Assembly (NCBI RefSeq): GCF_963678225.1
Contig: NZ_OY782764.1
Span: forward strand, 3,229,001 to 3,293,000
Origin: an uncultured Cohaesibacter sp.
Lineage (GTDB): Bacteria > Pseudomonadota > Alphaproteobacteria > Rhizobiales > Cohaesibacteraceae
Reading direction: 5' to 3'
Length of the DNA: 64,000 bases
In this document: piece by piece, positions 39,495-55,563 of the stretch
How positions within the stretch are numbered: position 1 is the stretch's first letter
Layout of the letters: each line of letters starts with the position of its first letter
Made by a program: the position numbers and the translations under genes
Notes under the pieces: model-generated
Seen by the model: the letters and a program-made list of their open reading frames with translations, nothing else
Database searches by the model: none
What the model was told of the DNA's origin: nothing

Positions 39495-40121
39495 TTAGTG
39501 GCAGATGCCAAACAGAAGAAGTTCCTTGACGGCCTGCTTGGTTTCTTCCCATTGCGCATCATTAAGATCACTGCCCTCGTTGAGGGTGGAGATCTGATGC
39601 TTGAAGTCTGCATAATGCTGGGTCGTTGCCCAGATGGTGAAAAGCAGATGCTTTGGGCTGATAGGGCGAATCTTTCCCGCCGCGATCCATTTGTGAATGA
39701 CGTTGACGCGCTCTTCCGTCCAGGAGCGCAGCTCTGTTTCCAAATAGTCTTGCACGATGGGGGCACCCTGAATGATCTCATTGGCCCAGACCATGGAGCC
39801 ATAGGGGCGGGTTCTGGCCAATTCCATCTTGGTGTCTATATAGCTGCCCAAAGCCTCTCTTGGGTCTGCGTCTTCTACAATTTCATCAGCCGCCGCACGC
39901 CATACATTGAAGATGTCTTCTACCACTGTTCGATACAGTAACTCTTTGGTAGAAAAGTAATAAACGACATTCGACTTGGGCAATCCAGCTTCTTCGGCTA
40001 TACGACTTATGGATGCTCCATTATATCCAAACTGCGCGAAAATTATTTCTGCGGCAGTCAATATATTTTCGATGTTCTGCGCCCTGTTTTTTTTCTGTTT
40101 CGTGTATTGTTGGGGTCTCAT
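39495..40121 (-). CDS. rutR: RutR-like TetR repressor of pyrimidine catabolism
   Basis: A 208-residue TetR-family protein. The HTH covers about 17-63 (AAEIIFAQFGYNGASISRIA, AGLPKSNVVYYF). The ligand domain matches E. coli RutR closely in parts, notably HLLFTIWATTQHYADF near 160, plus WIAAGKIRPI. RutR senses uracil/thymine and controls pyrimidine use. It diverges from the dehydrogenase-ureidopropionase-dihydropyrimidinase run, as expected for a local regulator. The start at 40121 is where homology begins; 56 further open codons upstream look non-coding. Confidence 0.82.
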   Translation of the reverse strand: MRPQQYTKQKKNRAQNIENILTAAEIIFAQFGYNGASISRIAEEAGLPKSNVVYYFSTKELLYRTVVEDIFNVWRAAADEIVEDADPREALGSYIDTKMELARTRPYGSMVWANEIIQGAPIVQDYLETELRSWTEERVNVIHKWIAAGKIRPISPKHLLFTIWATTQHYADFKHQISTLNEGSDLNDAQWEETKQAVKELLLFGICH

Positions 40122-40457
40122 GAATTTGCCTGTTTTGTTAATCTGTGCGGGCGCTGTAGTTTTTTCAAAAAGACAGAAGTATTTTTGGTTGTCCTGTAGA
40201 TAAAAATGAAACCATCCAAAAATACCTGCTGCAATTTTTGACTTTTCTTGTATTTTTTTTGAGCAGTTGCATGAATGTTTTGCAAACACTCAAAAACCTG
40301 ACCGATCGTGCAGGAAAAATATTGACCGATCGTGCGGATAATGCAAGCGTTCTTACCACGAAAGAGGCGTTTGGCAAAAAAAATCGCAAAATAAATGCAA
40401 TCAGCCAAAACGCTTCAAGGGGAATAGTGGGCTCAAACAGAGTTGAGGGGGCGCGTG
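40122..40457. other. divergent control region rutR / pyrimidine-catabolic operon
   Basis: An AT-rich 336-base region with no gene. It carries two copies of TGACCGATCGTGC and a TGTTT-TGC-AAACA inverted repeat (40276-40288). The A/T-rich part (about 40140-40260) faces rutR. No riboswitch was recognised. Confidence 0.5.
40299..40335. promoter_or_regulatory. paired direct repeat, candidate RutR-like operator
   Basis: TGACCGATCGTGC occurs at 40299-40311 and again at 40323-40335, 24 bases apart (just over two helical turns). Each copy is an imperfect palindrome around CGATCG, and the TTGACC of the second copy matches the half-site of E. coli RutR boxes. GGATAAT at 40335-40341 could be an overlapping -10 element. 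Binding is inferred. Confidence 0.6.
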
Positions 40458-41948
40458 ATGTATCACATCAAGAATATCATCAACGGGACAAGTATATCCT
40501 CCAAATCGGAGCGCCTGAGCGCCATCTATAATCCCGCTACGGGAGAACAGATTGGCTCGTTGGCTTTATCGACAGATGACGAGGTCGATGAGGCTGTGGC
40601 CGCTGCCAAGGCCGCGCTTCCCGGCTGGGCAGCAACGCCGCCAGCCAAGCGTGCGCGTGTGATGTTTGCCTATCAAGCATTGGTGCGCGAAAAGGCCGAT
40701 GACATCGCTCGCGAGATTAGTCGTGAACATGGCAAAACCCATGATGATGCTCTCGGGGAGGTCACGCGCGCTTTGGAAGTCATTGAATTTGCCTGCGGTG
40801 CTGCGCATTTGTTGAAAGGGGAGTTCTCACGCAATGTTGGCGCTGGCATCGACACCCATTCCGAGCGTCAGCCGCTTGGCGTCGTGGCCGGCATCACGCC
40901 GTTCAATTTCCCGGCCATGGTACCCATGTGGATGTTTCCGATGGCCATCGCTTGCGGCAACACCTTTGTTTTGAAACCATCCGAGCGGGATCCATCCGCT
41001 GCCAACTTTGTTTGTGAACTGCTTATGGAAGCCGGTTTGCCCGATGGCGTGATCAATGTGGTGCATGGCGATAAAAGCGCCGTGGATTGCCTGCTTGATC
41101 ATCCAGATGTGAAGGCCGTCAGCTTTGTTGGCTCCACACCGATTGCCGAATATGTCTATAAACGGGGCACCGATAGCGCCAAGCGCGTGCAGGCGCTGGG
41201 TGGTGCCAAGAACCATATGATCATCATGCCAGATGCGGATATGGATCAAGCGGCCGATGCCCTCATGGGCGCAGCCTTCGGCTCTGCTGGAGAGCGTTGC
41301 ATGGCGGTGTCCGTCGCGGTGCCGATTGGCGAAGAAACCGCCACCCGTCTCGTTTCCAGTCTCAAGCCAAAGGTTGAGGCCTTAAAGATCGGTCCATCCA
41401 GCGATGAGGCCGCGGAAATGGGGCCTGTGATCACGTCTGCAGCCAAGGAGCGCATCGTCGGCTTGATTGATAGCGGTGTAGAGCAGGGCGCAGATCTGGT
41501 AGTCGATGGCCGTGGCTTTGAGCTGCAAGGCTATGAAAATGGCTATTTCGTTGGTGGTACCCTGTTTGACAAGGTGACACCGGAGATGGACATCTACAAG
41601 ACCGAAATTTTTGGACCGGTGCTCTCTGTTTTAGAGCCGCAAAGCTTTGAGACTGCGGTCGATCTGATCAATATTCATGAATATGGCAACGGCACTGCGA
41701 TCTTCACGCGCAATGGAGACGCTGCCCGCAAATTCGCCAGCCAGATCGAAGTCGGCATGGTCGGGATCAACGTACCCATTCCGGTTCCGGTCGCCTTCCA
41801 TTCCTTCGGCGGCTGGAAACGCTCAAGCTTTGGCTCCCATGGTATTTACGGGCCGGAAGCCATCCATTTCTATACCAAATTGAAGACCACCACGACGCGT
41901 TGGCCCGAGGGACTGACCGAGGGCGCTGTATTCACTTTCCCAAGCTAG
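40458..41948 (+). CDS. mmsA: CoA-acylating (methyl)malonate-semialdehyde dehydrogenase
   Basis: A 496-residue aldehyde dehydrogenase of the MmsA/IolA type, which converts malonate semialdehyde (from beta-alanine) or methylmalonate semialdehyde (from 3-aminoisobutyrate) to acetyl- or propionyl-CoA. The catalytic Cys is in GSAGERCMAVSVAV (about 286); PLGVVAGITPFNFPAMVPMWM (about 138, part) is the MmsA signature. This is the last step of reductive uracil/thymine breakdown. GAGGGG seven bases upstream selects ATG 40458. Confidence 0.92.
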   Translation: MYHIKNIINGTSISSKSERLSAIYNPATGEQIGSLALSTDDEVDEAVAAAKAALPGWAATPPAKRARVMFAYQALVREKADDIAREISREHGKTHDDALGEVTRALEVIEFACGAAHLLKGEFSRNVGAGIDTHSERQPLGVVAGITPFNFPAMVPMWMFPMAIACGNTFVLKPSERDPSAANFVCELLMEAGLPDGVINVVHGDKSAVDCLLDHPDVKAVSFVGSTPIAEYVYKRGTDSAKRVQALGGAKNHMIIMPDADMDQAADALMGAAFGSAGERCMAVSVAVPIGEETATRLVSSLKPKVEALKIGPSSDEAAEMGPVITSAAKERIVGLIDSGVEQGADLVVDGRGFELQGYENGYFVGGTLFDKVTPEMDIYKTEIFGPVLSVLEPQSFETAVDLINIHEYGNGTAIFTRNGDAARKFASQIEVGMVGINVPIPVPVAFHSFGGWKRSSFGSHGIYGPEAIHFYTKLKTTTTRWPEGLTEGAVFTFPS

Positions 41949-42081
41949 GGAGAGCGGCGGGGCCATACGCTCCTGGTGTAAAGAAAAGACTATAAGCGCC
42001 TGAAATATAACCGGATAACCGGAAAGGGCGCACTTCCAGAATTGCCCATTGGGCGCAGTGAATTGACAGGGGAACCAGATC

Positions 42082-43323
42082 ATGAAGAAGAATCTGCGAG
42101 TGGATGGAGACCGTCTTTGGCAGTCTCTGATGGATATGGCAAAAATCGGTCCTGGCGTTGCCGGTGGCAACAACCGCCAGACCCTGACTGATGAGGATGC
42201 CGAAGGACGCGCACTGTTCAAACAGTGGTGCGATGATGCGGGCCTTACCATGGGCGTCGACAAGATGGGCTCCATGTTCATGACCCGTCCGGGCACCGAT
42301 CCAGATGCCTTGCCGGTCTATGTCGGCTCCCACCTTGATACCCAGCCGACGGGTGGCAAATATGACGGCGTTCTGGGTGTGCTCTCCGCTCTGGAATTGG
42401 TGCGCATGCTCAATGACGCAGACATCAAGACCAAACACCCGATTTGTGTGGTCAACTGGGCCAACGAAGAGGGCGGGCGCTTCTCCCCGCCGATGTTGGC
42501 CTCTGGTGTTTTTGCTGGTGTTCATTCGCTGGATTATGCCTATGGCCGCAAGGATCTGGAAGGCAAGACCTATGGCGAGGAATTGAAACGCATCGATTGG
42601 GTCGGCGAAGAAGAAGTGGGCACCCGTAAGATGCATGCCTATTTCGAATATCACATCGAGCAGGGGCCTATCCTCGAAGCCGAGGAAAAGGAAATCGGCG
42701 TTGTGACCCATTGTCAGGGGCTGTGGTGGCTTGAATTCACCTTGACCGGCAAGGAAGCGCACACAGGGTCCACCCCGATGGCCATGCGCGTCAATGCGGG
42801 CCTTGCCATGGCACGCATCTTCGAAATGGTGCAAGAGGTGACCATGGCCGCTCAGCCGAATGCTGTAGGTGGTGTAGGGCAGGTGACCTTCTCGCCAAAC
42901 TCGCGCAACGTGCTGCCGGGCACCGTTACCTTTACGGTCGATATTCGCACGGTTGATATCGAAAAGCTCAATGGCATGCGTGATGCCATCAAGGAGAAGG
43001 CCGCTGTTATCTGCGAAGAGCTGGGCGTTGGCTGCTCGGTGGAACAGGTTGGCCAGTTCGATCCGGTGACCTTCGATCCAACCTTGGTGGATCGCGTACG
43101 CAACGCAGCCATCGATTTGGGCTATTCCCACATGGATATCGTCTCTGGGGCCGGTCATGACGCATGCTGGGCTGCCAAGGTTGCGCCAGCTACCATGATC
43201 ATGTGTCCTTGCGTTGATGGTCTTTCGCACAACGAAGCCGAAGATATCTCCAAGGAATGGGCCACCGCCGGGGCCGATGTGCTTTTGCAGGCGGTTCTGG
43301 AAACAGCCGAGATCTCGGAATAG
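42082..43323 (+). CDS. pydC: beta-ureidopropionase-type M20 amidohydrolase
   Basis: A 413-residue zinc-dependent M20-family hydrolase that removes the carbamoyl group from N-carbamoyl-beta-alanine or the thymine-derived analogue. VGSHLDTQPTGGKYDGVLG near 81 (metal His/Asp), NWANEEGGRF near 126 (catalytic Glu pair), YHIEQGPILE and SGAGHDACWAAKVAP near 355 are family motifs. The LDTQPTGGKYDG form is common in ureidopropionases of pyrimidine clusters. It lies between the dehydrogenase and dihydropyrimidinase genes. Confidence 0.88.
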   Translation: MKKNLRVDGDRLWQSLMDMAKIGPGVAGGNNRQTLTDEDAEGRALFKQWCDDAGLTMGVDKMGSMFMTRPGTDPDALPVYVGSHLDTQPTGGKYDGVLGVLSALELVRMLNDADIKTKHPICVVNWANEEGGRFSPPMLASGVFAGVHSLDYAYGRKDLEGKTYGEELKRIDWVGEEEVGTRKMHAYFEYHIEQGPILEAEEKEIGVVTHCQGLWWLEFTLTGKEAHTGSTPMAMRVNAGLAMARIFEMVQEVTMAAQPNAVGGVGQVTFSPNSRNVLPGTVTFTVDIRTVDIEKLNGMRDAIKEKAAVICEELGVGCSVEQVGQFDPVTFDPTLVDRVRNAAIDLGYSHMDIVSGAGHDACWAAKVAPATMIMCPCVDGLSHNEAEDISKEWATAGADVLLQAVLETAEISE

Positions 43324-43565
43324 CAAGACCAGAGCATCAAAAGAAGCGATCAATAAAAGAGTGGATTCCCCAAAAGATGAACAGGGCAAAAAGCCCGGTG
43401 GAATCCGCCCATGCAATGACCTGAACAAAGGGTTCCGGACCACTCAAAGCCGCTCCGGAGCATTCAATACACCAAGGCAAGAGGCAGATCGTTCGCTTAC
43501 CGGGAACGCCCGAACTGTATCCAGAGCAGATTGCTTCTTGGCATGAAAATTGAAAGGAACAGCAC

Positions 43566-45020
43566 ATGAGCAAAGTGATTAAAGGCGGCACGGTCGTTAC
43601 CGCCGATCTGACTTATGAAGCCGATGTGAAAATCGAGGGCGGTGTCATCACCGAAATCGGTCCTGATCTTTCCGGCGATGAAATTTTGGATGCGTCCGGT
43701 TGCTATGTGATGCCGGGCGGCATTGATCCGCATGTGCATCTGGAAATGCCTTTCATGGGCACCTATTCCGCCGATGACTTTGCCTCGGGCACGCGTGCTG
43801 CCGTTTCCGGCGGAACGACCATGGTGGTAGATTTCTGCTTGCCTGATCCGGGGCAGAGCCTGATGGACGCCCTGATGCGCTGGGATAACAAATCCACCCT
43901 TGCTACATGCGACTATTCCTTCCACATGGCCATCACATGGTGGGGCGAGCAGGTCTTTAATGAAATGGAGACCGTCGTGCGTGAGAAGGGCATCAACACC
44001 TTTAAGCATTTTCTTGCCTATAAAGGCTCGTTGATGGTCAATGATGACGAGTTGTTCGCTTCCTTCCAACGTTGTGCCGAACTGGGGGCTATGCCGCTGG
44101 TTCACGCGGAAAATGGAGACGTCGTTGCCTCCATGTCTGCCAAACTGCTGGAAGAGGGCAATGTCGGACCTGAAGCCCATGCCTATTCCCGTCCGCCAGA
44201 AGTGGAAGGGGAAGCCACCAACCGCGCCATCATGCTGGCCGATATGGCAGGTGTCCCGCTCTATGTGGTGCATACCTCCTGCGAGCAGAGCCACGAAGCC
44301 ATCCGCCGCGCCCGCCAGAAAGGCATGCGCGTCTATGGTGAGCCGCTCATTCAGCATCTGACGCTTGATGAGAGCGAATATTTCGACAAGGACTGGGATC
44401 ACGCCGCCCGTCGTGTGATGAGCCCGCCATTCCGCAACAAGATGCATCAGGATAGCCTCTGGGCAGGCTTGCAGGCCGGTTCTCTCTCCTGTGTGGCGAC
44501 CGATCACTGCGCCTTTACAACCGATCAGAAGCGCTACGGTGTTGGTGATTTCACCAAGATCCCGAACGGCACAGGAGGTCTGGAAGATCGCCTGCCGATG
44601 CTCTGGACCTATGGTGTTGGCACCGGTCGTCTGACGATGAACGAGTTTGTCGCAGTTACCTCAACCAACATCGCCAAGATCCTTAATATGTACCCAAAAA
44701 AGGGCGCTATCCTTGTTGGGGCTGATGCCGATATCGTGGTTTGGGATCCCAAGCGCTCCAAAACCATCACGGCGGCCAATCAGGTATCCACCATCGACTA
44801 CAGCGTCTTCGAAGGCAAGGAAGTCACTGGCCTGCCACGCTTCACCTTGTCGCGCGGCAAGGTGATGGTCGAGGAAAGCACATTGAAGACTGAAGAGGGG
44901 CACGGCGAATTCGTGGCGCGCCAGCCTTACACGGCGGTCAATAAGGCGCTTTCCACCTGGAAGGAACTGGTCTCGCCGCGTCCGATCGCCCGCTCAGGCA
45001 TTCCGCCAAGCGGCGTTTAA
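43566..45020 (+). CDS. hydA: dihydropyrimidinase (hydantoinase family)
   Basis: A 484-residue amidohydrolase that opens the ring of dihydrouracil or dihydrothymine. The metal site is complete: DPHVHLE near 57, the carbamylated Lys in FKHFLAYKG near 148, VHAENGD near 180, VVHTSCEQ near 236 and CVATDHCAF near 315. Length is standard. AAAGGAACAGCAC precedes the ATG. Without a local PreA/PreT the source of its dihydropyrimidine substrate is the key question. Confidence 0.93.
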   Translation: MSKVIKGGTVVTADLTYEADVKIEGGVITEIGPDLSGDEILDASGCYVMPGGIDPHVHLEMPFMGTYSADDFASGTRAAVSGGTTMVVDFCLPDPGQSLMDALMRWDNKSTLATCDYSFHMAITWWGEQVFNEMETVVREKGINTFKHFLAYKGSLMVNDDELFASFQRCAELGAMPLVHAENGDVVASMSAKLLEEGNVGPEAHAYSRPPEVEGEATNRAIMLADMAGVPLYVVHTSCEQSHEAIRRARQKGMRVYGEPLIQHLTLDESEYFDKDWDHAARRVMSPPFRNKMHQDSLWAGLQAGSLSCVATDHCAFTTDQKRYGVGDFTKIPNGTGGLEDRLPMLWTYGVGTGRLTMNEFVAVTSTNIAKILNMYPKKGAILVGADADIVVWDPKRSKTITAANQVSTIDYSVFEGKEVTGLPRFTLSRGKVMVEESTLKTEEGHGEFVARQPYTAVNKALSTWKELVSPRPIARSGIPPSGV

Positions 45021-45051
45021 TCGGCGCCCGATAATCGCTGAGCCAACAACT

Positions 45052-45082
45052 ATCCTGCGGGTGCCTTATGCATCCGCAGGAT
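45052..45082 (+). promoter_or_regulatory. hairpin between hydA and the ABC transporter genes
   Basis: ATCCTGCGG (45052-45060) pairs with CCGCAGGAT (45074-45082), with further TGC/GCA pairing inside the loop. No T-run follows. It may stabilise the upstream message or act as a partial terminator between catabolic and transport genes. Confidence 0.5.
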
Positions 45083-45132
45083 TGATTGAAGAATGACGAT
45101 AACAAGCATAATCCGAACGGGAACAAGCAACG

Positions 45133-45933
45133 ATGATGCACTCCGACTTCCATGTGGTCTCAGCCAAAGATCTCTGTCTGACCTTTCAGACCAATGATGG
45201 GCCGGTCCATGCGCTCAAGGATGTCAATTTACAAATAGACAAGGGCGATTTTGTCAGTTTCATTGGCCCGTCCGGCTGTGGCAAGACAACCTTTCTGCGT
45301 GCCATCGCTGCTTTGGAAAATCCCACCTCCGGTGAGCTGACGGTGAATGGCACTTCGCCCGAACTGGCGCGAAAAGACCGCGCCTACGGCTATGTGTTTC
45401 AGGCCGCTGGCCTCTACCCATGGCGCACGATTGCGCGCAACATCAAATTGCCCCTTGAGATCATGGGCTTCACCAGAGCCGAGCAGAATGAGCGGGTCGA
45501 ACGGGTGCTCAAGCTGGTGGATCTGGAAGGCTTTGGCAACAAGTTCCCATGGCAGCTTTCCGGCGGTATGCAGCAGCGCGCTTCCATCGCGCGCGCACTG
45601 TCATTCGATGCTGATATCCTGCTGATGGATGAACCCTTCGGGGCATTGGACGAGATCGTACGAGACCATCTCAACGAACAGCTTCTCAAGCTCTGGTCGA
45701 GCACGGGCAAGACCATCGGCTTTGTGACCCATTCCATTCCAGAGGCTGTTTATCTTTCTACCAAGATTGTTGTCATGAGCCCACGTCCGGGCCGTATCAC
45801 TGATGTCATCGAGAGCACGCTTCCCAAGGAACGCCCGCTTTCCATCCGTGACAGTCAGGAATTCATCGACATTGCTCATCGCGTGCGCGAGGGCTTAAGA
45901 GCCGGTCATGGCGATGGAGCGAATGATGCGTAA
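45133..45933 (+). CDS. ABC transporter ATP-binding protein (nitrate/taurine-type family)
   Basis: A 266-residue ATPase with Walker A GPSGCGKTT near 49, Q-loop VFQAAGLYPWRTI (about 89), signature LSGGMQQR near 145 and Walker B ILLMDEPFGALDE near 163. It belongs to the NitT/TauT/SsuB/ThiZ class, which pairs with NMT1-type binding proteins, as here. With two permeases and a binding protein it forms one importer, most simply for pyrimidines. Confidence 0.92.
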   Translation: MMHSDFHVVSAKDLCLTFQTNDGPVHALKDVNLQIDKGDFVSFIGPSGCGKTTFLRAIAALENPTSGELTVNGTSPELARKDRAYGYVFQAAGLYPWRTIARNIKLPLEIMGFTRAEQNERVERVLKLVDLEGFGNKFPWQLSGGMQQRASIARALSFDADILLMDEPFGALDEIVRDHLNEQLLKLWSSTGKTIGFVTHSIPEAVYLSTKIVVMSPRPGRITDVIESTLPKERPLSIRDSQEFIDIAHRVREGLRAGHGDGANDA

Positions 45934-46789
45934 GCTGTTTGCTGTTTTCACTGTCGTTCTGGTCATCGTTGCGATCTGGTATGCCGCCGCAGTGAAGATG
46001 AACGCCAAATGGGCCTATGATCAGGCCGCCCGCGCAAAGGTCGAGATCTCTTTCTCGGAACTGGTCAAGGACACCTGGGCGCAGGAGCGTCCGGTTCTGC
46101 CAGCGCCGCATCAGGTGATGACCGAGCTCTGGAAAACGACGGTTGGTAAGAAGATCACCTCCAAGCGGTCTCTCATTTTTCATGGCTGGATCACGCTCGA
46201 AGCGACCCTGCTGGGCTTTATCACAGGCACGTTGCTGGGCATCGCGCTTTCGGTTGGCATCATCTATATCCGCGCCATGGACATGAGCGTCATGCCATGG
46301 GCCATTGCCTCCCAGACCGTGCCCATTCTGGCCATCGCACCGATGATCATTGTCGTGCTCAACTCGGTCGGCATACAGGGCTTGATCCCCAAGGCGATTA
46401 TCTCGGCCTATTTGAGCTTCTTCCCCGTGTTGGTGGGCATGGTGAAAGGCTTACGCGCGCCTGATCATATGCAGATGGATTTGCTCAAGACCTACAACGC
46501 CTCCAAGAGCGACGCCTTCTACAAGCTGCGCCTGCCGTCTTCAGTGCCTTATCTCTTCACCTCCATGAAGGTGGGTATAGCGGCCTCTCTTGTCGGTACC
46601 ATCGTGGGTGAATTGCCAACCGGGGCAATCCGCGGGCTGGGTGCGCGTCTTCTAACGGGCTCCTATTATGGCCAGACCATTCAGATGTGGGCGGCTCTTT
46701 TCGCCGCGGCCCTGCTGGCGGCTGGTCTTGTCGCGCTTGTTGGAATGGCCGAGAAAATTGTTCTTAAGAAAATGGGGATGGTACGATGA
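45908..46789 (+). CDS. ABC transporter permease 1
   Basis: A 293-residue BPD-type permease with about six to seven hydrophobic helices and an EAA loop at DLLKTYNASKSDAFYKLRLP (about 192). The N-terminal 85 residues include one helix and a polar loop. It overlaps the ATPase gene by 26 bases; internal ATGs at 45923 and 45926, just after GGAG, are possible alternative starts. Confidence 0.88.
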   Translation: MAMERMMRKLFAVFTVVLVIVAIWYAAAVKMNAKWAYDQAARAKVEISFSELVKDTWAQERPVLPAPHQVMTELWKTTVGKKITSKRSLIFHGWITLEATLLGFITGTLLGIALSVGIIYIRAMDMSVMPWAIASQTVPILAIAPMIIVVLNSVGIQGLIPKAIISAYLSFFPVLVGMVKGLRAPDHMQMDLLKTYNASKSDAFYKLRLPSSVPYLFTSMKVGIAASLVGTIVGELPTGAIRGLGARLLTGSYYGQTIQMWAALFAAALLAAGLVALVGMAEKIVLKKMGMVR

Positions 46790-47631
46790 CCCTGGTGCTG
46801 GCTGCAATTGTCATCTGGATCGTGGCTTCATGGATCAATGTGAAGCTGTCCCGATCCTCGGCCCATAACACGCTTCTTGTGCGCTTTCTGGTGCCCTTCA
46901 TTTTCGGTGTCACCATCATCGCAGCTTGGGAACTGCTGGCACGCGGACTAGACATCCCGTCGGTCATCCTGCCGCCGCCATCGGCCATCGCCACGCGCTT
47001 CGCTGCATCTACCGATATCCTGTGGCTCGATTTCGTGCAGACCTTCGTCAAGGGCGCGCTGACTGGCTATATCATGGGCTGCGGAGCGGCTTTCCTGACC
47101 GCGATCCTGATCGACCGTGTGCCTTTCCTGCAGCTTGGTCTTCTCCCGGTTGGCAACTTTGTGGCCGCGCTGCCCATCGTCGGTATAGCCCCGATCCTTG
47201 TCATGTGGTTCGGCTTTGACTGGCAGTCCAAAGCCGCAGTGGTCGTGGTGATGGTCTTTTTCCCCATGCTGGTCAACTGCGTGCAAGGGCTCTCGGATAC
47301 AGACAGCATGCAACGCGACCTGATGAAGACCTATGCGGCGAGCTACGCCGATACATTGCTCAAGCTGCGCCTGCCAGCGGCAATGCCATTCATTTTCAAT
47401 GGTCTGAAAATTTCGACCACCTCGGCGCTTATCGGCGCGATTGTGGCCGAATTTTTCGGCTCTCCGATTGTCGGTATGGGATTTCGTATCTCAACCGAGG
47501 TCGGCAAGCTCGGGCTCGATATGGTCTGGGCAGAAATTACGGTTGCAGCCATCGCTGGCTCCCTTTTCTACGGAGCCGTGGCAGCAATCGAAAAAGGGGT
47601 GACCTTCTGGCATCCCTCTCAAAGGGGCTAG
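46786..47631 (+). CDS. ABC transporter permease 2
   Basis: A 281-residue second permease of the same importer, with an EAA loop at DLMKTYAASYADTLLKLRLP near 184 and six or more hydrophobic helices. The start overlaps the stop of permease 1 (ATGA). Heterodimeric permeases of this sort accompany NMT1-type binding proteins in alphaproteobacterial pyrimidine clusters. Confidence 0.9.
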   Translation: MTLVLAAIVIWIVASWINVKLSRSSAHNTLLVRFLVPFIFGVTIIAAWELLARGLDIPSVILPPPSAIATRFAASTDILWLDFVQTFVKGALTGYIMGCGAAFLTAILIDRVPFLQLGLLPVGNFVAALPIVGIAPILVMWFGFDWQSKAAVVVVMVFFPMLVNCVQGLSDTDSMQRDLMKTYAASYADTLLKLRLPAAMPFIFNGLKISTTSALIGAIVAEFFGSPIVGMGFRISTEVGKLGLDMVWAEITVAAIAGSLFYGAVAAIEKGVTFWHPSQRG

Positions 47632-47706: not shown

Positions 47707-48708
47707 ATGAGAGACACTTTCAAGACTTTTGCGATTGGCGCATGTGCAGCTGCCTCGATCTTTGCAGCCACCGGAGCCAACGCGGCAGATGACTTTACCC
47801 TTCAGCTGAAATGGGTGACCCAGGCCCAGTTTGCCGGCTATTATGTTGCTCTGGAAAAGGGCTTCTATGAAGAAGAAGACCTCAATGTCACCATTAAACC
47901 GGGCGGTCCGGATATTGCTCCCACGCAGATCCTTGCCGGTGGCGGTGCTGATGTCGTGGTCGACTGGATGCCGTCCGCTCTGGCTGCTCGTGAAAAGGGC
48001 CTGCCGCTGGTAAACATCGCTCAGCCTTACAAATCCTCCGGCATGATGCTGACTTGCCTTAAGGAAAGCGGCGTAAAGACCCCTGATGACTTCCCGGGCA
48101 AAACCCTTGGTGTCTGGTTCTTCGGCAACGAATATCCATTCCTTAGCTGGATGAGCATTCTTGGCATTCCCACCGAAGGTGGTGATGATGGTGTAACCGT
48201 CCTCAAGCAGGGCTTCAACGTCGATCCTCTGCTCCAGAAACAGGCTTCCTGTATCTCCACCATGACCTACAACGAATATTGGCAGGTGATTGATGCTGGC
48301 ATCTCTGAAGATGAACTGATCACTTTCAAGTATGAAGATCAGGGTGTTGCAACGCTGGAAGACGGCCTCTATGTGCTCGAAGACAAGTTGGCAGATGATG
48401 CCGAAGTCGACAAACTGGCCCGCTTCGTGAAAGCCTCCATGAAAGGCTGGAAATGGGCGGAATCCAATCCCGATGAAGCAGCCGAGATCGTTCTGGAATA
48501 TGACGAAACCGGTGCCCAGACCGAAAAGCACCAGAAGCGTATGATGGCCGAAGTTGCCAAGTTGACCGCAGGCTCCAACGGCGCGCTTGATCCGGCCGAC
48601 TATGAGCGCACCGTCAAGACCCTGATGAGCGGCGGTTCTGCTCCGGTTATCTCCAAGGCACCAGAAGGCGCCTGGACCCACAAGATTACCGATCTGGCTC
48701 TGAAGTAA
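47707..48708 (+). CDS. NMT1/THI5-like solute-binding protein, predicted pyrimidine importer
   Basis: A 333-residue periplasmic protein. A Sec signal peptide ends near ATGANA|ADD (residue 26). LQLKWVTQAQFAGYYVALEKGFY (in part, near 33) and PGGPDIAPTQILAGGGADVVVDW (in part) are typical of NMT1/ThiY-like binding proteins that hold pyrimidine-like rings. Substrate is inferred from neighbours: uracil, thymine or related compounds, although a thiamine-precursor pyrimidine remains possible. Confidence 0.85.
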   Translation: MRDTFKTFAIGACAAASIFAATGANAADDFTLQLKWVTQAQFAGYYVALEKGFYEEEDLNVTIKPGGPDIAPTQILAGGGADVVVDWMPSALAAREKGLPLVNIAQPYKSSGMMLTCLKESGVKTPDDFPGKTLGVWFFGNEYPFLSWMSILGIPTEGGDDGVTVLKQGFNVDPLLQKQASCISTMTYNEYWQVIDAGISEDELITFKYEDQGVATLEDGLYVLEDKLADDAEVDKLARFVKASMKGWKWAESNPDEAAEIVLEYDETGAQTEKHQKRMMAEVAKLTAGSNGALDPADYERTVKTLMSGGSAPVISKAPEGAWTHKITDLALK

Positions 48709-48739
48709 GCCAGCTCAGCAATAAAGTGGTCTGACTTGA

Positions 48740-48768
48740 TCCGCATCCGGGTTTGCCTCGGATGCGGA
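48740..48768 (+). terminator. hairpin after the binding-protein gene
   Basis: TCCGCATCCG (48740-48749) pairs with CGGATGCGGA (48759-48768) around a nine-base loop. No T-run follows, so it may be an attenuator or 3' stabiliser rather than a full terminator between transport and F420 genes. Confidence 0.5.
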
Positions 48769-48902
48769 GAGAGTGAGCCCCAAAGGCACCGAACAATAAA
48801 AGACATCTGATACCGCGCACGCTTTCCGGGGCATCTAGGCCGGTTTTGCGCGAACAGGACCGCTTTGTCTCAATTTCAGGGCGCGCGACCCTGTCAGAAT
48901 AT

Positions 48903-48912
48903 TGTTCGAACA
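48903..48912. promoter_or_regulatory. palindrome upstream of cofG
   Basis: TGTTCGAACA is a perfect ten-base palindrome 22 bases before the cofG start. It could be an operator for the F420 operon; the binding protein is unknown and it may be chance. Confidence 0.3.
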
Positions 48913-48933
48913 GTTTGATTTTTCAAAAAGGGC

Positions 48934-50145
48934 ATGTGCGACAAGATGCTGGTACAGAGTGAACGCAACAGTCGATCTCATGAAGTTTATGGGGACCTCT
49001 CAACGGGAACCCGCGAGCTTTATGATGAAGCGCGATATCTGCAAAAGGCCGATCTGGGAAGCTTGATGGCGCGGGCCTGTGTCATTCGTGAGGCGCGTTG
49101 GGGCCGTACCGTGACCTATTCGCGCAAGGCTTTTGTTCCGCTCACCAACATGTGCCGGGATACCTGCGCCTATTGTACCTTTGTCAAGCATCCCGACCAT
49201 CCTGACGCCAATATCATGTCGCCCGAACAGGTGCTGGCAACAGCACGCAAAGGTGAGGCGCAAGGCTGCAAGGAATTGCTCTTCAGCTTGGGAGAAAAGC
49301 CCGAATTGCGCTACGAGCGTGCAAGGGCCGCACTCTCTCTGCTGGGCTATGAAAGCATGACCAACTATCTGGCGGACATGTGCGCGCTGGTGTTGGAAGA
49401 AACCGCCATGCTGCCCCACGTCAATGCGGGCACGCTCAACGATGAAGAATTGGAAAAGCTGCGCCCGGTTTCCGCTTCCATGGGCATGATGCTCGAAACC
49501 ATCTCCCGTCGTCTGATGCATAAGGGCGAGGCGCATTATGCCTGTCCGGACAAGGTGCCCTTGCAGCGTCTACGCACGCTGGAGCGGGCAGGGGAACGCA
49601 AGGTGCCCTTTACCACCGGCTTGCTCATCGGTATCGGTGAAACATGGGAAGAGCGCATCGAGGCACTCCATGCCATCAATGAGAGCCACAAGCGCCACGG
49701 TCACATTCAGGAAGTCATTATCCAGAATTTCCAGACCAAACCTGATATCGCCATGGCGCACCATAAGGAACCCAGCCTTGAGGATATGCTCAGGACCATC
49801 GCAGCCGCTCGGCTCATTCTGTCGCCCGATATCAGCTTGCAGGCGCCGCCAAATCTCAATGCCCGTCACATTGCCTATCTCGATGCGGGTATCAACGATT
49901 GGGGTGGCATCTCGCCGGTGACCATCGATTTTATCAATCCTCAGCATGTCTGGCCGCAAATCGATGTCTTGGCCGAGAGCTGCAAAAGCGCTGGCTTTGC
50001 GCTCAAGGAACGCCTTCCCATTTATCCGGACTATTTGAAACGGGGCTCCGCATTTTTAAGCCCTCAACTGCAAGATCGCGTCGCTGCAATGGCTGCACGC
50101 GACGGTCTGGCTCAAGAACAACGACACCTGATGCAGGGAGAATAA
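48934..50145 (+). CDS. cofG: CofG, 7,8-didemethyl-8-hydroxy-5-deazariboflavin (FO) synthase subunit 1
   Basis: A 403-residue radical SAM enzyme. The cluster motif CRDTCAYC lies near residue 73 inside TNMCRDTCAYCTFVKHP, the CofG hallmark. With CofH it joins a tyrosine-derived unit to 5-amino-6-ribitylaminouracil to make FO, the F420 chromophore. In actinobacteria the two are fused as FbiC; here they are separate. AAAAAGGG sits immediately before the ATG at 48934; ATG 48946 is an alternative start. Confidence 0.93.
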   Translation: MCDKMLVQSERNSRSHEVYGDLSTGTRELYDEARYLQKADLGSLMARACVIREARWGRTVTYSRKAFVPLTNMCRDTCAYCTFVKHPDHPDANIMSPEQVLATARKGEAQGCKELLFSLGEKPELRYERARAALSLLGYESMTNYLADMCALVLEETAMLPHVNAGTLNDEELEKLRPVSASMGMMLETISRRLMHKGEAHYACPDKVPLQRLRTLERAGERKVPFTTGLLIGIGETWEERIEALHAINESHKRHGHIQEVIIQNFQTKPDIAMAHHKEPSLEDMLRTIAAARLILSPDISLQAPPNLNARHIAYLDAGINDWGGISPVTIDFINPQHVWPQIDVLAESCKSAGFALKERLPIYPDYLKRGSAFLSPQLQDRVAAMAARDGLAQEQRHLMQGE

Positions 50146-50149
50146 GATC

Positions 50150-51427
50150 ATGACCAATGAAATAGTAAATAATATTGAGAATGACATTGAGATTGATGCG
50201 TCTGCTATCTCCCAGCCAGTCAGAGATGTTCTTGATAAGGCATTGGAAGGGCGTGAGATTACGCAAATGGAAGCTGTCACGCTGTTCAAGGCAAATGGGC
50301 ATGCCGACAAGCAAGCGATCTATCATGCCGCGGATCTGTTGCGCCAAAAAGCCAATGGCGATTTGGTGACCTTTACCGTCAACCGGAACATCAATTTCAC
50401 CAATGTCTGCTATATGGGGTGCAAGTTCTGCAACTTTGCCAAACGCGCTGACGAAGAAGATGCGCAATGGCACTCGGTGGAAGAGGTGCTGCGCCGCTGC
50501 CATGAAGCTTGGGACCGTGGCGCGACCGAAGTCTGCATTCAGGGCGGGCTCCACCCCAAGCTTCCCGGCACCTATTATGAAGAGCTCTGCCGCGCCATCA
50601 AGGCCGAGATCCCGGATATGCATCTGCATGCCTTCTCGCCCTTTGAAGTCTGGTATGGCGCATCGAAAAGCCGCAAGCCTTACCGAGAGTTCCTGCAAGG
50701 GCTTAAAGAGGCTGGTCTGGGCACCATGCCGGGCACGGCTGCGGAAATTCTTGATACCGAGATCCGCAAACAGCTGACCAAGGACAAGCTCAGCACGGAG
50801 AAATGGGTCGAGATCATCCGCACCGCGCATGAGGTTGGCATCAAGACAACCGCCACCATCATGTATGGCCATATCGACGCGCCGGAGCATTGGGCTGCAC
50901 ATATCGATTTGTTGCGATCCATCCAGAAAGATACCGGCGGCTTTACTGAATTTGTGCCGCTGTCCTATCAGCATGTGGGCACCGCTCTCTATACAGAAAA
51001 TCCGGGCAAGGTGCGCATGGGGCCGAGCACGGACGAAATCGACAAGATGCATGCGGTTTCCCGCATCATGCTGCATGGGTTGATTGATAATATTCAGGTG
51101 TCCTGGACCAAATTGGGGCCAGACCATGCCATGGCCATGCTCAACCGTGGCGCCAACGACATGGGCGGCACCTTGATGGAAGAGAGCATCTCGCGCGCCG
51201 CCGGAGCTGATCATGGGCAAGAGATCACCGCCTATGAGCTGACGCAGATCGTGCGGGCGTCGGGGCGCACGCCAGCGCGCCGCTCAAGCGATTATCGTAT
51301 TCTGGATATTTACGACGATCATGATCCGCAACCGCTCGCACCGCTGATCGAGCGGGGTGACAAAGATCCTCTCGACTTCCTAAAAATGTTCCCGGATGCC
51401 TCCTCGGGTCTGGAGGCGGCCGAATGA
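50150..51427 (+). CDS. cofH: CofH, FO synthase subunit 2
   Basis: A 425-residue radical SAM enzyme with CYMGCKFCNFAKR near residue 85 (NFTNVCYMGCKFC is the CofH hallmark), CIQGGLHP near 128 and HAFSPFE near 163. It attacks tyrosine in FO formation. It starts four bases after cofG with AGGGAG upstream, and its stop overlaps cofD. A 40-residue variable N-terminal extension precedes the core. Confidence 0.94.
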   Translation: MTNEIVNNIENDIEIDASAISQPVRDVLDKALEGREITQMEAVTLFKANGHADKQAIYHAADLLRQKANGDLVTFTVNRNINFTNVCYMGCKFCNFAKRADEEDAQWHSVEEVLRRCHEAWDRGATEVCIQGGLHPKLPGTYYEELCRAIKAEIPDMHLHAFSPFEVWYGASKSRKPYREFLQGLKEAGLGTMPGTAAEILDTEIRKQLTKDKLSTEKWVEIIRTAHEVGIKTTATIMYGHIDAPEHWAAHIDLLRSIQKDTGGFTEFVPLSYQHVGTALYTENPGKVRMGPSTDEIDKMHAVSRIMLHGLIDNIQVSWTKLGPDHAMAMLNRGANDMGGTLMEESISRAAGADHGQEITAYELTQIVRASGRTPARRSSDYRILDIYDDHDPQPLAPLIERGDKDPLDFLKMFPDASSGLEAAE

Positions 51428-52392
51428 GCGATCAACAAAAGCTGAAGGTTACCCTGCTGGCCGGTGGGGTCGGCGGGGCGAAGATGGCCGAAGGCTTTGC
51501 TTTGCTGGAGGACGTCGATCTCACCATTATCGGCAACGTGGCTGATGATGAGGAGTTTCACGGTCTTTGGGTGTCACCGGATATCGACACCATGACCTAC
51601 ACCCTCTCGGGTAGGATCAACCGTCAGCAGGGCTGGGGGCTGGCGGACGAAGGCACGCGCGCGCTGGAGACCCTGACAAGCTTGGGCGAAGATACATGGA
51701 TGATGTTGGGTGACAGGGATTTCGGCCTGCATATCTACCGCACCATGCGCAGAATGAAGGGTGATAGGCCAAGCGATATCGCCGCTGATGTGGCCAAGGC
51801 CTTCGGCGTCAAATCCAAAATCCTGCTGCCAACCGACGATGTGGTTCAAACGCGGGTCAAGACAGAACAGGGCTGGCTCAGTTTTCAGGAATATTTCGTC
51901 AAGGAAAAATGCGCCCCCGTCGTCAAGGCGCTGGAATTTGCTGGTATCGAAGCGGCGACCGCCACACCGGAAGCTCTGGAAGCCATTGCGAGCGCGGAAC
52001 TGCTCGTCATTGCACCCTCCAATCCGCTGGTCAGCATCGAACCGATCCTTGCAATCGAGGGCATTCGCGACGCTTTGAAAAAGAGTGCAGTACCGACCAT
52101 CGCTGTCAGTCCGCTAATTGCCGGAAAGGTGGTCAAGGGACCTGCTGACAGAATGATGAGCGCTCTGGGGATGCGAGCCGATGCCGTTGGTGTGGCCACA
52201 CGCTATCAGGGGCTTGCCGATATCTTGTTGATTGATCATCAGGATGTGGCTCTGTCCGCAGAGATCTTGGACCTTTCCATCGCGCCTCACTGCGCGGACA
52301 TCATGATGAAGGATATGTCTGACAAGATGCGGCTCGCCTCAGAGATTGTCGACCTCGCCAGAGATCAAGGGCAGAATGGAGCGGCGGCATGA
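51424..52392 (+). CDS. cofD: CofD, phospholactate (or related) transferase to FO
   Basis: A 322-residue transferase that moves the phosphoacid moiety from its guanylyl-activated form onto FO. LLAGGVGGAKMAEGFALL near 10, SPDIDTMTYTLSGRIN near 50, GWGLADEG, MMLGDRDFGLHIYRT near 93 and IAPSNPLVSIEPIL near 197 match the family. The usual NxGDD loop reads NVADDEEFHG. Four-base overlaps with both neighbours indicate tight coupling. Confidence 0.93.
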   Translation: MSDQQKLKVTLLAGGVGGAKMAEGFALLEDVDLTIIGNVADDEEFHGLWVSPDIDTMTYTLSGRINRQQGWGLADEGTRALETLTSLGEDTWMMLGDRDFGLHIYRTMRRMKGDRPSDIAADVAKAFGVKSKILLPTDDVVQTRVKTEQGWLSFQEYFVKEKCAPVVKALEFAGIEAATATPEALEAIASAELLVIAPSNPLVSIEPILAIEGIRDALKKSAVPTIAVSPLIAGKVVKGPADRMMSALGMRADAVGVATRYQGLADILLIDHQDVALSAEILDLSIAPHCADIMMKDMSDKMRLASEIVDLARDQGQNGAAA

Positions 52393-53048
52393 GCGAAAGA
52401 GTGCTGGTTCTCATTCCCATGAAGGCACCCACGCAAGCCAAGTCACGCCTCAAGTCTGTGTTGAGCGACAGGGAGCGTTCCGCTCTGGCTTTATCATTAT
52501 TCAAAGTCGTCGTTACACGGGTCAAGGATGCTGTACAGAGACTTTCTGAGGTGGGTGGAAATCGGGATATTATTGATATCGCTGTTATTTCGAGCAGTGA
52601 CACAATTGAATCTCAAGCAGCAGATCTCGGGATCATCTATCTTGAAGAAGAGACCGGAGACGGTCTGGTCGCTGCGGTAGAGGAAGCTGCTGCAAAGGCC
52701 AGTTGGCGCGGTTATAAGCGCCTGTGTATTCTTCCCGGCGATCTTGCCGACCCATCGGCTTCAGACATTATACGGCTGCTTTCCTATCCGGTAGACGAGG
52801 GGACGATAGCCCTTTGTCCGTCTCAGGATTTGGGGACCAATGCGCTGGTCGTAACCCTGCCAAGTCCGATGCCTTTTGCCTTCGGACCAGAGTCTTTCAC
52901 ACGACATTTCAGTCTGGCAGCGGACCGTGGGCTCATGCCGGTCATCCTGCCGCTCAAGAGCCTGCGCCGAGATATCGATACCCTGGCCGATCTGGATTAT
53001 CTCGATGACAACCAGACCCTCGGCATCATGAACAGGGAGGAAGCATGA
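52389..53048 (+). CDS. cofC: CofC, phosphoacid guanylyltransferase for F420
   Basis: A 219-residue nucleotidyltransferase that activates 2-phospholactate, phosphoenolpyruvate or 3-phosphoglycerate with GTP. PMKAPTQAKSRL at 10-21, LPGDLADPS near 118, DLGTNAL near 146 and FGPESFTRH near 163 are the CofC motifs. Which acid it prefers cannot be read from sequence alone. Overlaps cofD and cofE by four bases each. Confidence 0.9.
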   Translation: MSERVLVLIPMKAPTQAKSRLKSVLSDRERSALALSLFKVVVTRVKDAVQRLSEVGGNRDIIDIAVISSSDTIESQAADLGIIYLEEETGDGLVAAVEEAAAKASWRGYKRLCILPGDLADPSASDIIRLLSYPVDEGTIALCPSQDLGTNALVVTLPSPMPFAFGPESFTRHFSLAADRGLMPVILPLKSLRRDIDTLADLDYLDDNQTLGIMNREEA

Positions 53049-53830
53049 CAGATAGCATGGCGTCTTCTCTTTGCATCACTGCCATCCCCGATGTGCCTGA
53101 TATTGTCGAGGGCGACGATCTGGCGGCGATTGTTGGCGATTGCCTTGTGGCAAGCGGACATACGCCCGTTGAAGGAGATATTCTCTGCGTAGCGCAAAAG
53201 GTCTTTTCCAAGGCTGAAGGCTGTGTCTATCCGCTTTCGAGCATTACGCCATCGCCCGAAGCATTGCGTTACGCCGAAGAGCTGGGCAAGGACCCCCGCA
53301 AGGTGGAAATCGTGCTGCGGGAAAGCGCCGAAGTCGTGCGTGCCTTCCGCCACCCCGGTCAGAGCGAAGGCACCATGATTTGCCGTCACAGGCTGGGCTT
53401 CATTTCGGCCAATGCCGCTGTTGATGAATCCAACATTGCCGAAACGGATGCCGCCATGACGCTGCCGCCTGATCCCGACGCCAGCGTGGTTGCCATGCGG
53501 GACGCGCTGGAAGCTCGTTTCGGCTGCCGCATTGGTGTGGTGATGACAGACACCTTCGGTCGGCCTTGGCGCATCGCGCAGGTCAATGTGGCCATAGGGC
53601 TGGCTGGTGTGCCTGCCACCTTGCGCGAGCAGGGCAACGAAGATGCATGGGGCCGTACCATGAAAGTGACTGAGGCGGCCTTTGCTGATGAGCTGGCAGC
53701 CGCCTCCGGTCTCGTGGTCAAGAAGGCTGCAAAAACACCCCTCGTGTTGTTCCGTGGGCTCGACTGGAGCCCGTCCCAGAGCAAGGCCGAGGATCTGTTG
53801 AGAGGAAAACAAGAGGATATGTTCAGATGA
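53045..53830 (+). CDS. cofE: CofE, F420-0:gamma-glutamyl ligase
   Basis: A 261-residue GTP-dependent ligase that adds glutamate residues to F420-0. [17 protein letters not shown] near 44, [22 protein letters not shown] (in part, near 166) and [21 protein letters not shown] (in part) are intact. It lacks the C-terminal nitroreductase-like domain found in actinobacterial FbiB, so no dehydro-F420 reductase is encoded in this operon. Confidence 0.94.
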
Positions 53831-54495
53831 CGATCGCAATCATTGGCGGCACAGGGCCGCAAGGGCAGGGGCTTGCCTTGAGATTTGCGCGCGCCGGTGT
53901 GCCAGTGGCTCTGGGCTCGCGTGATGCCACGCGTGCTGCGGAAATCGGTGTTGCCCTGCGCGCGCAGTTGGACGACGTCGCAGCTCCTATTACGGGTGTA
54001 GCGAATGAGGAAGCCGTTATGATGGCTGATGAGTTGGTCATTCTCGCGGTGCCCTTTGCTGGCCACAATGCCACGCTGGAAGCACTCAAGCCACATCTGG
54101 AAGGCAAGATCCTTGTCGATATCGTCGTGCCGCTGAAAGAGGGCGACCCCAAAAAGGTCGAGATGCCGCCCGAAGGCTCGGCGACAGAAGCAGCCCAGGC
54201 GCTGCTTGGGCCGGATATTCCCGTCGTCGGAGCCTTGCACAATGTGTCCGCGTCCACGCTGAAGACTCTCGAATGGGATATCAACTGCGATATTCTGGTG
54301 TGTGGCAATTCGCTTCCCGCCCGCAAGAAGGTCATGGCGCTGGTCGAGACGCTCGGTGTCGTCGCCTACAATGCTGGCGATGCTGAAGCTGCACGCTGCA
54401 TCGAGGCGATCACGCCCATTCTCATTCGGATCAATATTTCCAAGCAGGTGCCCTTCACCCATGCCGGTGTGAAGATTCAGGCGCCGGCTCACTGA
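53827..54495 (+). CDS. npdG: NADPH:F420 oxidoreductase (NpdG/Fno)
   Basis: A 222-residue Rossmann protein that exchanges hydride between NADP(H) and F420. [11 protein letters not shown] at 7-17 binds the dinucleotide, and GSRD at 33-36 offers the basic residue that recognises the NADP 2'-phosphate. [11 protein letters not shown] near 138 is diagnostic of the F420 reductases. A four-base overlap with cofE places it in the operon. It would supply F420H2 from NADPH in vivo. Confidence 0.92.
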
Positions 54496-54558
54496 TAAAC
54501 AGAACAATCACCAAACCGACCTTTGAAAAGACTTGAAGAACAAGGACAGGAGAGAGAG

Positions 54559-55563
54559 ATGGAATTCGGTATTTGCTTTAAAGGCTTCGTCGAGCCCAAG
54601 CGTGCCCGCGCCCTTGTGCGACAGGCCGAGAACGCCGGCTTTACCTATTGCTGGTTTTACGATAGCCACATCCTTTGGCGCGAAAGCTATATGGCGATGG
54701 CCATGTGCATGGAGCACACGACCAAAATGCGCTTCGGTCCATGCGTGACCAACCCGAACACCCGTGACTGGTCGCTGGCGGCATCGATGTTTGGCTCTCT
54801 TGCCAAGCAGTCCGAAGGCCGGTTCGACATTGGCCTTGGCCGAGGCGATAGCGCCGTGCGTGTCATGGGGCTCAAGCCCGCACCGCTGAAGCGTCTGGAA
54901 GAATTCACGCGAGTGGTCAAGGCCTTGGTGCGCGGTGACGAAGCGCAATATGGCGAATGCCCCGAGCCGGTCAAATTTCCTTGGGCTGAAGGCTACGAGT
55001 TGCCAATCTGGGTGGCTGCCTATGGTCCAAAGGCGTTAAGCTCCGCCGGACGGGTTGGGGATGGTCTCATCCTGCAGATCGCCGAGCCGAGCATTGTCAA
55101 ATGGCTGGCAAGCACGGCCATCGCAGAGGGCAAACAAGCTGGCCGCGACATGTCCAACTTCAAGGTCATGTCCGCCGCGCCAGCCTATTTCGGCACGAAG
55201 GAAGAATGCATCGCCGCAACCCGCTGGTTCCCTGCCATGGTGGGCAACCATGTGGCCGACATCGTTGAGAAATACGGCACCGAGCGGGACGATATCCCCG
55301 AAGCGCTCACTGCCTATATCAAGGATCGCAAGGGCTATGACTATTCCAAGCATGGCCAGAGCGATAATCCGTATCTTGATTTCATTACTGATGAAATTAT
55401 CGAAGGCTTCAGCGTTCTGGGCGCTGCCGATCAACATATCGCCAAGCTTGGTGTTCTGGAGGACGCGGGCGTCACCCAGTTCAATATCTATCTGGACAAC
55501 GGCAAGGAAGAACAGATCATCGCCGAATATGGCGAGAAGATCATCCCTGCTTTTGATGCCTGA
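54559..55563 (+). CDS. LLM-class F420-dependent oxidoreductase, candidate dihydropyrimidine-forming reductase
   Basis: A 334-residue TIM-barrel luciferase-like oxidoreductase related to methylene-tetrahydromethanopterin reductase. MEFGICFKGF opens the barrel, GLGRGDSAVRVMG near 94 is the phosphate-binding loop of F420 enzymes, and PIWVAAYGPKAL near 153 is typical. It is the only F420-using enzyme besides NpdG in the operon, 63 bases after npdG and followed by a terminator. By elimination it may reduce the C5=C6 bond of uracil/thymine with F420H2; this is inference. AGGAGAGAGAG selects the ATG at 54559. Confidence 0.85.
   Translation: MEFGICFKGFVEPKRARALVRQAENAGFTYCWFYDSHILWRESYMAMAMCMEHTTKMRFGPCVTNPNTRDWSLAASMFGSLAKQSEGRFDIGLGRGDSAVRVMGLKPAPLKRLEEFTRVVKALVRGDEAQYGECPEPVKFPWAEGYELPIWVAAYGPKALSSAGRVGDGLILQIAEPSIVKWLASTAIAEGKQAGRDMSNFKVMSAAPAYFGTKEECIAATRWFPAMVGNHVADIVEKYGTERDDIPEALTAYIKDRKGYDYSKHGQSDNPYLDFITDEIIEGFSVLGAADQHIAKLGVLEDAGVTQFNIYLDNGKEEQIIAEYGEKIIPAFDA

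Follow-up and report, generated by a model that had tools for sequence, protein, structure and literature searches.

The reductive (Pyd) breakdown of pyrimidines starts with enzymes of the PreTA/DPYD/PydA type, of which PreTA is an iron-sulfur flavoprotein; RutA, by a different first step, opens the pyrimidine ring oxidatively with FMN. Here we analyse a stretch of 64,000 nucleotides, hereafter the window, from an uncultured Cohaesibacter sp. (assembly GCF_963678225.1, contig NZ_OY782764.1, positions 3,229,001 to 3,293,000), in which a gene for an LLM-class F420-dependent oxidoreductase of family TIGR03842 closes a run of genes for pyrimidine breakdown and F420 biosynthesis. Sequence comparisons make it very likely that this LLM protein is an F420H2-dependent uracil/thymine reductase, and thus a new first step of reductive pyrimidine breakdown, in which the LLM protein and the NADPH:F420 oxidoreductase NpdG replace PreTA. 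The locus resembles PreTA/DPYD/PydA systems in its kinds of neighbours (PydC, HydA, an ABC/NMT1 transporter and a RutR-like regulator) and in the inferred reaction and its position in the pathway; the differences are that PreA is missing from the window genome and that the enzyme proposed for its step, a luciferase-like protein that would use F420H2, is unrelated to it.

A changed electron donor for uracil reduction has been described in the ferredoxin-dependent enzyme of Clostridium chromiireducens (PMC7332683), but that enzyme is a PydA, whereas in the Cohaesibacter run the protein family itself would be replaced. In urate clusters of Chloroflexota, a PF00296 protein is predicted to replace a PydA-like or YgfK-type enzyme, with a hydantoinase-type step in the cluster (PMC12507026); the likeness is one of description and not of sequence, and this yanthine reductase differs in its purine-derived substrate, in its phylum and in being a prediction only. 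Likewise, SSGG-03002 of Streptomyces roseosporus (homologue NpsU) is a putative F420/FMN oxidoreductase for the uracil C5-C6 bond, and its disruption shows that it is required for this reduction in mureidomycin (PMC10714638); it belongs, however, to nucleoside antibiotic biosynthesis, its cofactor is putative, and the word 'luciferase' is absent from the main text of that paper. The first-pass annotation of this DNA had stated that no F420-dependent dihydropyrimidine dehydrogenase was known to it, and indeed we found none described in open-access full texts, among the matches listed (most subscription journals and the whole of bioRxiv lie outside this scope), the two printed hints being PMC12507026 and PMC10714638. 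Nor did the open-access literature yield a paper on TIGR03842 or CPS_4043; the relevant passages of PMC10143877 mention LLM-class F420 enzymes, and not dihydropyrimidines.

The LLM protein and the genes of its run

The window genome (4.94 Mb, in two contigs) has Cohaesibacter species as its closest named relatives, and the LLM protein of C. marisflavi is 98% identical to that of the window. All genes named by the first-pass annotation are open frames at the positions given here, on the plus strand unless marked otherwise. Gene identities were assigned by score against curated family cut-offs (NCBIfam/TIGR/PRK models), with the ABC and NMT1 genes called by Pfam, and every enzyme of the run scores above one curated cut-off of its own family. 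The LLM protein (54559..55563; 334 aa) matches TIGR03842 over its full length with 499.7 bits (cut-off 295.45), a family that NCBIfam labels F420_CPS_4043 and holds as a hypothetical equivalog only. Upstream of it lie npdG (53827..54495; TIGR01915, 184 bits, cut-off 150) and the F420 biosynthesis set, all over their cut-offs: cofG (48934..50145; TIGR03550, 466 bits, cut-off 213), cofH (50150..51427; TIGR03551, 489 bits, cut-off 374), cofD (51424..52392; TIGR01819, 278 bits, cut-off 257), cofC (52389..53048; TIGR03552, 132 bits, cut-off 105) and cofE (53045..53830; TIGR01916, 224 bits, cut-off 181).

The same run contains genes for both hydrolytic steps of the reductive pathway, a dihydropyrimidinase (HydA/PydB, 43566..45020; TIGR02033, 595 bits, cut-off 393) and an M20 N-carbamoyl-amino-acid hydrolase, presumably the beta-ureidopropionase PydC (42082..43323; PRK09290.1-3, 680 bits, cut-off 452, and also over the cut-off of TIGR01879). 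It opens with a CoA-acylating (methyl)malonate-semialdehyde dehydrogenase (MMSDH, 40458..41948; TIGR01722, 704 bits, cut-off 448.5), and includes an importer made up of an ABC ATPase (45133..45933), two permeases (45908..46789 and 46786..47631) and an NMT1/THI5-like binding protein (47707..48708). The run had been described as co-directional: its plus-strand genes are all present and end at an intrinsic-terminator-like hairpin followed by TCTTTTT (about 55610..55645; fold z -3.4, although a strict terminator scan did not return it), while the RutR-like regulator is divergent and stands outside the run. Nor is the run uniformly tight, with a gap of 225 bp between the NMT1 gene and cofG.

Proteins over the TIGR03842 cut-off occur in 15/20 genomes of the family, without exception from the same genus, and in 8/387 and 2/398 genomes of the class and phylum samples, respectively (window genome counted each time). 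Of the 15 genus loci, 13 (the window among them) keep the complete run, which argues that it is not a chance assembly. In one of the other two (L068), some 11 to 14 kb separate the LLM gene from pydC and hydA, which are accompanied by an aminotransferase and pntB; the fetched DNA of the last (L072) contains neither pydC nor hydA. A class III aminotransferase stands between regulator and dehydrogenase in 5/12 of the other full-run loci, and none like it was found in the window.

We propose that uracil or thymine would enter through the ABC/NMT1 importer, and that NpdG, whose family reduces F420 with NADPH, would do so here with the F420 made by CofGHDCE. The Mer-related LLM protein would then reduce the C5=C6 bond by hydride transfer from F420H2, with dihydrouracil or dihydrothymine as the product, so that LLM and NpdG would stand in for PreTA. 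As judged from their families, the dihydropyrimidinase would open the ring, the M20 hydrolase would remove the carbamoyl group, a class III aminotransferase (adjoining in some relatives, outside the window) would convert beta-alanine or beta-aminoisobutyrate, and the MMSDH-type enzyme would yield acetyl- or propionyl-CoA.

The nearest solved structures by sequence are those of the F420-dependent methylene-tetrahydromethanopterin reductase Mer (E 2e-27), whose group a published phylogeny names reductase, as opposed to the Fgd/Adf dehydrogenase group (PMC6279831). The LLM protein nevertheless stays under the Mer model cut-offs (126.5/276 and 124.5/348.7 bits). In the LLM/Mer sequence alignment, from which the residue register was taken, Asp96 and the position-C carboxamide of Mer correspond to Asp97 and Gln173, both kept in 97/97 rows, whereas the counterpart of the catalytic Glu6 (position A) is Cys, Thr, Ala or Val in all 97 rows and never Glu. 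Glu6 has been proposed to protonate the pterin, in a study that also treats the roles of other Mer positions (PMC11094777). Because Asp97 and Gln173 are kept and no row has Glu at the Glu6 position, we predict that the LLM protein should bind F420 and pass on hydride, and not act on methylene-pterins; Mer-like pterin reduction was dismissed as its reaction for want of a Glu6 counterpart. Dependence on F420 is likewise expected from the family and from co-occurrence with CofH (see below). As an Fgd, the protein scores 20/420 bits. Predicted alphaproteobacterial F420 producers encode Fgd according to a review (PMC8498797); since the window genome has no other PF00296 protein and the Fgd score is 20/420, some of the published Fgd predictions in Alphaproteobacteria may be this LLM protein.

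First-step enzymes elsewhere in the window genome were sought through PF01180 and PF00296, and this genome-wide search for preA and rutA returned neither (PreT was not searched on its own). The PF01180 (DHO_dh) search gave only two proteins over the cut-off, a class-2 PyrD and a PyrDB whose gene adjoins a PyrK-like one, and a further match that was weak and partial; no DHO_dh protein in the genome passes the PreA cut-off, which rules out a PreA elsewhere in it. The LLM protein is the only PF00296 protein in the whole genome, and it is no RutA, with which it shares superfamily and a pyrimidine as (proposed) substrate: TIGR03612 is absent among its 21 NCBIfam matches, and a BLASTP comparison with E. 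coli RutA is not significant (E 0.48). We also rejected a RutA-like oxidation by the LLM protein, for lack of this similarity and because HydA would then be pointless. Neither a PreTA nor a Rut first step is thus seen in a genome that has steps two and three of the reductive pathway.

A set of PyrK-like, PyrDB and M20 genes does exist besides the class-2 PyrD, and the PyrDB-PyrK pair with its adjacent M20 amidase might in principle be the dihydropyrimidine dehydrogenase of the first step. We give this next to no credence, since PyrDB passes as a dihydroorotate dehydrogenase with 353 bits (cut-off 269) and, with 140 bits, falls well short of the PreA cut-off of 335; moreover, a PyrDB-like match occurs in just 3/50 genomes with LLM (G406, G407 and G409), so that it cannot serve the other PreA-free ones, and it was dismissed on this count. 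The three genes, on contig 2 near 2129350-2132400 (L002, L081), form a candidate orotate catabolic module.

Exchange between LLM and PreA contexts

The surroundings of the LLM gene in other named genomes were examined in the best 80 of 451 confirmed relatives, 42 of these loci having full 10 kb flanks, and HydA, PydC and NMT1 were called at 60% identity or more. HydA was found in the fetched DNA of 34/80 loci and, among those fully flanked, within 10 kb in 26/42, with HydA, PydC or NMT1 in 27/42. By our estimate, a HydA would lie this close by chance in about 1% of cases, given 20 kb out of a genome of 1 to 6 Mb. PreA was near LLM in none of the 80 loci.

The linkage takes several arrangements, seven by our count. 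For instance, the pyd genes are upstream in the same run in Cohaesibacter and in SAR116 (seen there from hydA on, as far as the 10 kb flank reaches), divergent from LLM in Pseudovibrio, Paracoccus denitrificans and Limimaricola, downstream behind a divergent regulator in L138, L144 and L147, and downstream in marine metagenome-assembled genomes and single cells such as L145 and L154. In five alphaproteobacterial loci (L109, L120, L140, L152 and L060), pydC-hydA-ABC-NMT1 come immediately after LLM, and the fetched DNA, which in L140 includes only 1.9 kb upstream of LLM, contains no cof gene. In three of the corresponding genomes (G424, G432 and G451, of L109, L120 and L152), the open frames that hold CofH are 892-1094 aa long. 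This suggests that CofG and CofH are fused there and encoded away from the LLM-pyd cluster, as against the split cofG and cofH of the window.

On a Leisingera plasmid (L228), pntAB, an aminotransferase, a Zn hydrolase, hydA and an NCS1 nucleobase symporter diverge from cofGHDCE-npdG-LLM-TetR, according to the deposited annotation. The pntAB genes are at 8925-11942 of this locus, beside the cof and pyd genes, and the pntB of L068 is near 10300-11718; a transhydrogenase is a plausible source of NADPH for NpdG. A similar cluster is found in L118, a record titled Nocardioides marinus that entered the Paracoccus-family sample (G430) and is probably mislabelled. Outside the proteobacteria, a Streptomyces plasmid has a dihydropyrimidinase gene and, right behind it, one for a TIGR03842 protein (590 bits, 44% identical), with a carbon-nitrogen hydrolase and a class III aminotransferase near the pair.

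PydC, HydA, ABC and NMT1 genes like those of the window also accompany preT-preA in other genomes. We fetched preA stretches from 18 genomes with PreA and LLM and from 20 Paracoccus-family genomes with PreA and no LLM; a HydA like that of the window (64 to 82% identity) was present in 17/18 and 16/20 of them, respectively, mostly with pydC, ABC and NMT1 genes, and the NMT1 protein of the window is 73-87% identical to copies near preTA (some of them cut at the end of the stretch). The order in L147 is cof-npdG-LLM, rutR (minus strand), pydC, hydA, ABC, NMT1, and L138 is the same up to the contig end; in both, the regulator, pydC, hydA and the transporter are placed around LLM as they are around preA in canonical clusters. 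We built a maximum-likelihood tree from 75 distinct HydA proteins, 43 of LLM loci and 32 of PreA loci (a quick search with SH-aLRT support only; identical rows, including that of the window, were dropped, and the genomes behind some LLM-locus rows carry PreA too). Its strongly supported branches require six or more switches between LLM and PreA context. Since the tree forces these switches, HydA probably has the same substrate in both.

Presence in whole genomes points the same way as the neighbourhoods. HydA occurs in all of the 50 LLM genomes that we chose out of the 80 (best match 66-100% identical; two matches partial, at contig ends), so that the test of LLM and hydA co-occurrence named by the first-pass annotation came out in its favour. 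CofH was found in 52/52 genomes (these 50, the window genome and G828), and it is also present in the five whose LLM has no cof gene in its fetched neighbourhood. We drew a further sample evenly from the family of the Paracoccus denitrificans genome, which we take to be Rhodobacteraceae (246 genomes, at least 95% complete). LLM is found in 10 of them and CofH in 11, and the 11 include all 10 with LLM (p 6e-17); the eleventh CofH genome, G669, has PreA. PreA occurs in 204/246, namely in 2/10 genomes with LLM versus 202/236 without it (Fisher p 1.4e-5); for both p values, the genomes are not independent by descent. The mutual exclusion of LLM and PreA proposed earlier is thus strong in this family, but it is not absolute, because 18 of the 50 LLM genomes carry both. 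Leisingera is a case with both systems, whereas in the Paracoccus denitrificans genome (G435) no PreA passes the cut-off. Together, these comparisons support, within limits, the proposal of the first-pass annotation that an F420 route has replaced PreAT.

The coexistence of PreA and LLM is the first of several observations that weigh against a uracil/thymine reductase. PreA passes its cut-off in those 18 genomes, 16 of which carry two HydA copies, and a different substrate preference of the LLM and PreA systems is therefore possible. HydA, PydC and NMT1 are all missing, at the identity used, from 15/42 fully flanked loci; the 50 tested genomes include those of 13 of these loci, each with a HydA elsewhere. 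The Paracoccus-family loci L219-L222 have no HydA in the fetched DNA, with NMT1 in one, and two alphaproteobacterial loci (L059, L061) and a Paracoccus alcaliphilus plasmid (L225) have no pyd genes there. Likewise, G828 (L218; same phylum, other family) holds an M20 hydrolase, a regulator, cof-npdG-LLM and MMSDH together, and lacks HydA in the 20 kb fetched. Three alphaproteobacterial genomes (L062-L066) have at least two TIGR03842 paralogues, about 49-57% identical and partly in tandem (up to three), mostly beside cof or npdG; the DNA fetched around these diverged copies contains no HydA, so that TIGR03842 may cover more than one function. No copy of the candidate operator described below precedes cofG. 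Finally, an in vitro assay of the putative F420/FMN uracil-moiety reductase by others failed (PMC10714638).

Some of these points would suit an enzyme that reduces a related cyclic ureide, such as a substituted uracil or a purine-derived ring, and hands the product to HydA and the M20 hydrolase. Both hydrolase families are broad, the doubled HydA of genomes with PreA looks as if substrates differed, the Leisingera plasmid has a second HydA copy beside LLM, and a luciferase-family F420 candidate has been predicted for yanthine reduction in Chloroflexota (PMC12507026). We nonetheless hold this reading to be improbable. HydA changed context at least six times on its tree, and HydA, PydC, ABC and NMT1 match those of preA clusters. 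MMSDH and the RutR-like regulator fit, by what is known of their families, the malonate or methylmalonate semialdehyde that would come from uracil or thymine, and the window proteins scanned include no purine-ring genes.

Alternatively, cof-npdG-LLM could be a hitch-hiker that lies beside the pyd genes and serves another purpose, for example a Mer-like, pterin-linked reduction. The kinship with Mer structures, the 225 bp gap without an operator copy before cofG and the cof-LLM loci without nearby pyd genes are all compatible with this. However, the substitution of Glu6 in every row argues against a Mer-like reaction, the five LLM genes without cof neighbours run straight into pydC-hydA-ABC-NMT1, and the constant presence of HydA together with the low frequency of PreA would lack an explanation; we consider that a hitch-hiker has very little chance of being the right answer.

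An F420H2-dependent uracil/thymine reductase remains our preferred reading for the Cohaesibacter locus. Its extension to the family is probable as well: TIGR03842 would comprise F420H2-dependent pyrimidine-ring reductases unrelated to PreA/DPYD, in Alphaproteobacteria and at least one Streptomyces, that were repeatedly exchanged with PreTA, and most Alphaproteobacteria able to make F420 would do so mainly to supply these enzymes.

Regulator, candidate operator and flanking genes

The TetR-family repressor (39495..40121, minus strand; TetR_N and TetR_C_3, YcdC-like, by Pfam) is 37% identical to E. coli RutR, and RutR is its best NCBIfam model. We call it only RutR-like, because both RutR equivalog cut-offs are unmet (TIGR03613, 193.4/368 bits; PRK15008, 166.7/230 bits). 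Its probable start, at 40121, differs slightly from that of the longest frame (from 40289), as do the probable starts of MMSDH (40458) and LLM (ATG at 54559). Between regulator and dehydrogenase lies a tandem candidate operator, two copies of TGACCGATCGTGC(A/G) 24 bp apart (40299..40336). The pair is kept in 13/13 genus loci, the comparison taking in those with the full run (window included); twelve of them have the 24 bp spacing and the thirteenth has 23 bp, and the pair persists where the first gene differs. The window genome contains one further exact match, inside an open frame. A RutR-like repressor at this tandem site would probably make the pathway inducible. The E. coli RutR consensus, which differs from this tandem repeat, was rejected as the operator, with 7 matches in the window (up to three mismatches) against 2.7 expected, and the sole match in the cluster, at 39626, inside the regulator gene.

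Within the gap between the NMT1 gene and cofG there is an inverted repeat at 48740-48768 (tccgcatccggg...ggatgcgga), found by eye, which is possibly an attenuator or processing site. Downstream of LLM, a separate cluster for the osmolyte N-acetylglutaminylglutamine amide (NAGGN) occupies 56288-61070 (TIGR03104 amidotransferase, GNAT/ATP-grasp protein and M42 peptidase), preceded by a divergent MarR regulator (55694-56188), and a second M20-type hydrolase, 32% identical to that of the run, is found at 62052-63260 on the minus strand.

Meaning for F420 in proteobacteria

Why Proteobacteria make F420 is listed as an open question in a 2021 review (PMC8498797), and a 2022 paper still gives its physiological role in Gram-negative producers as unknown (PMC8764529). 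If our reading is true, an F420-driven first step could explain why some proteobacteria make this cofactor; because LLM and CofH almost coincide in the sample of 246 genomes (10/11) and HydA accompanies LLM in 50/50 genomes, the question comes down to a single assay and a single knockout. Paracoccus denitrificans is reported to contain F420 in trace amounts (PMC8498797), which a pathway made only on pyrimidines would account for. Likewise, pyrimidine catabolism would have a further, unrelated type of first enzyme, and the TIGR03842 family, so far hypothetical, would gain a function and possibly provide a small enzyme for reducing uracil analogues.

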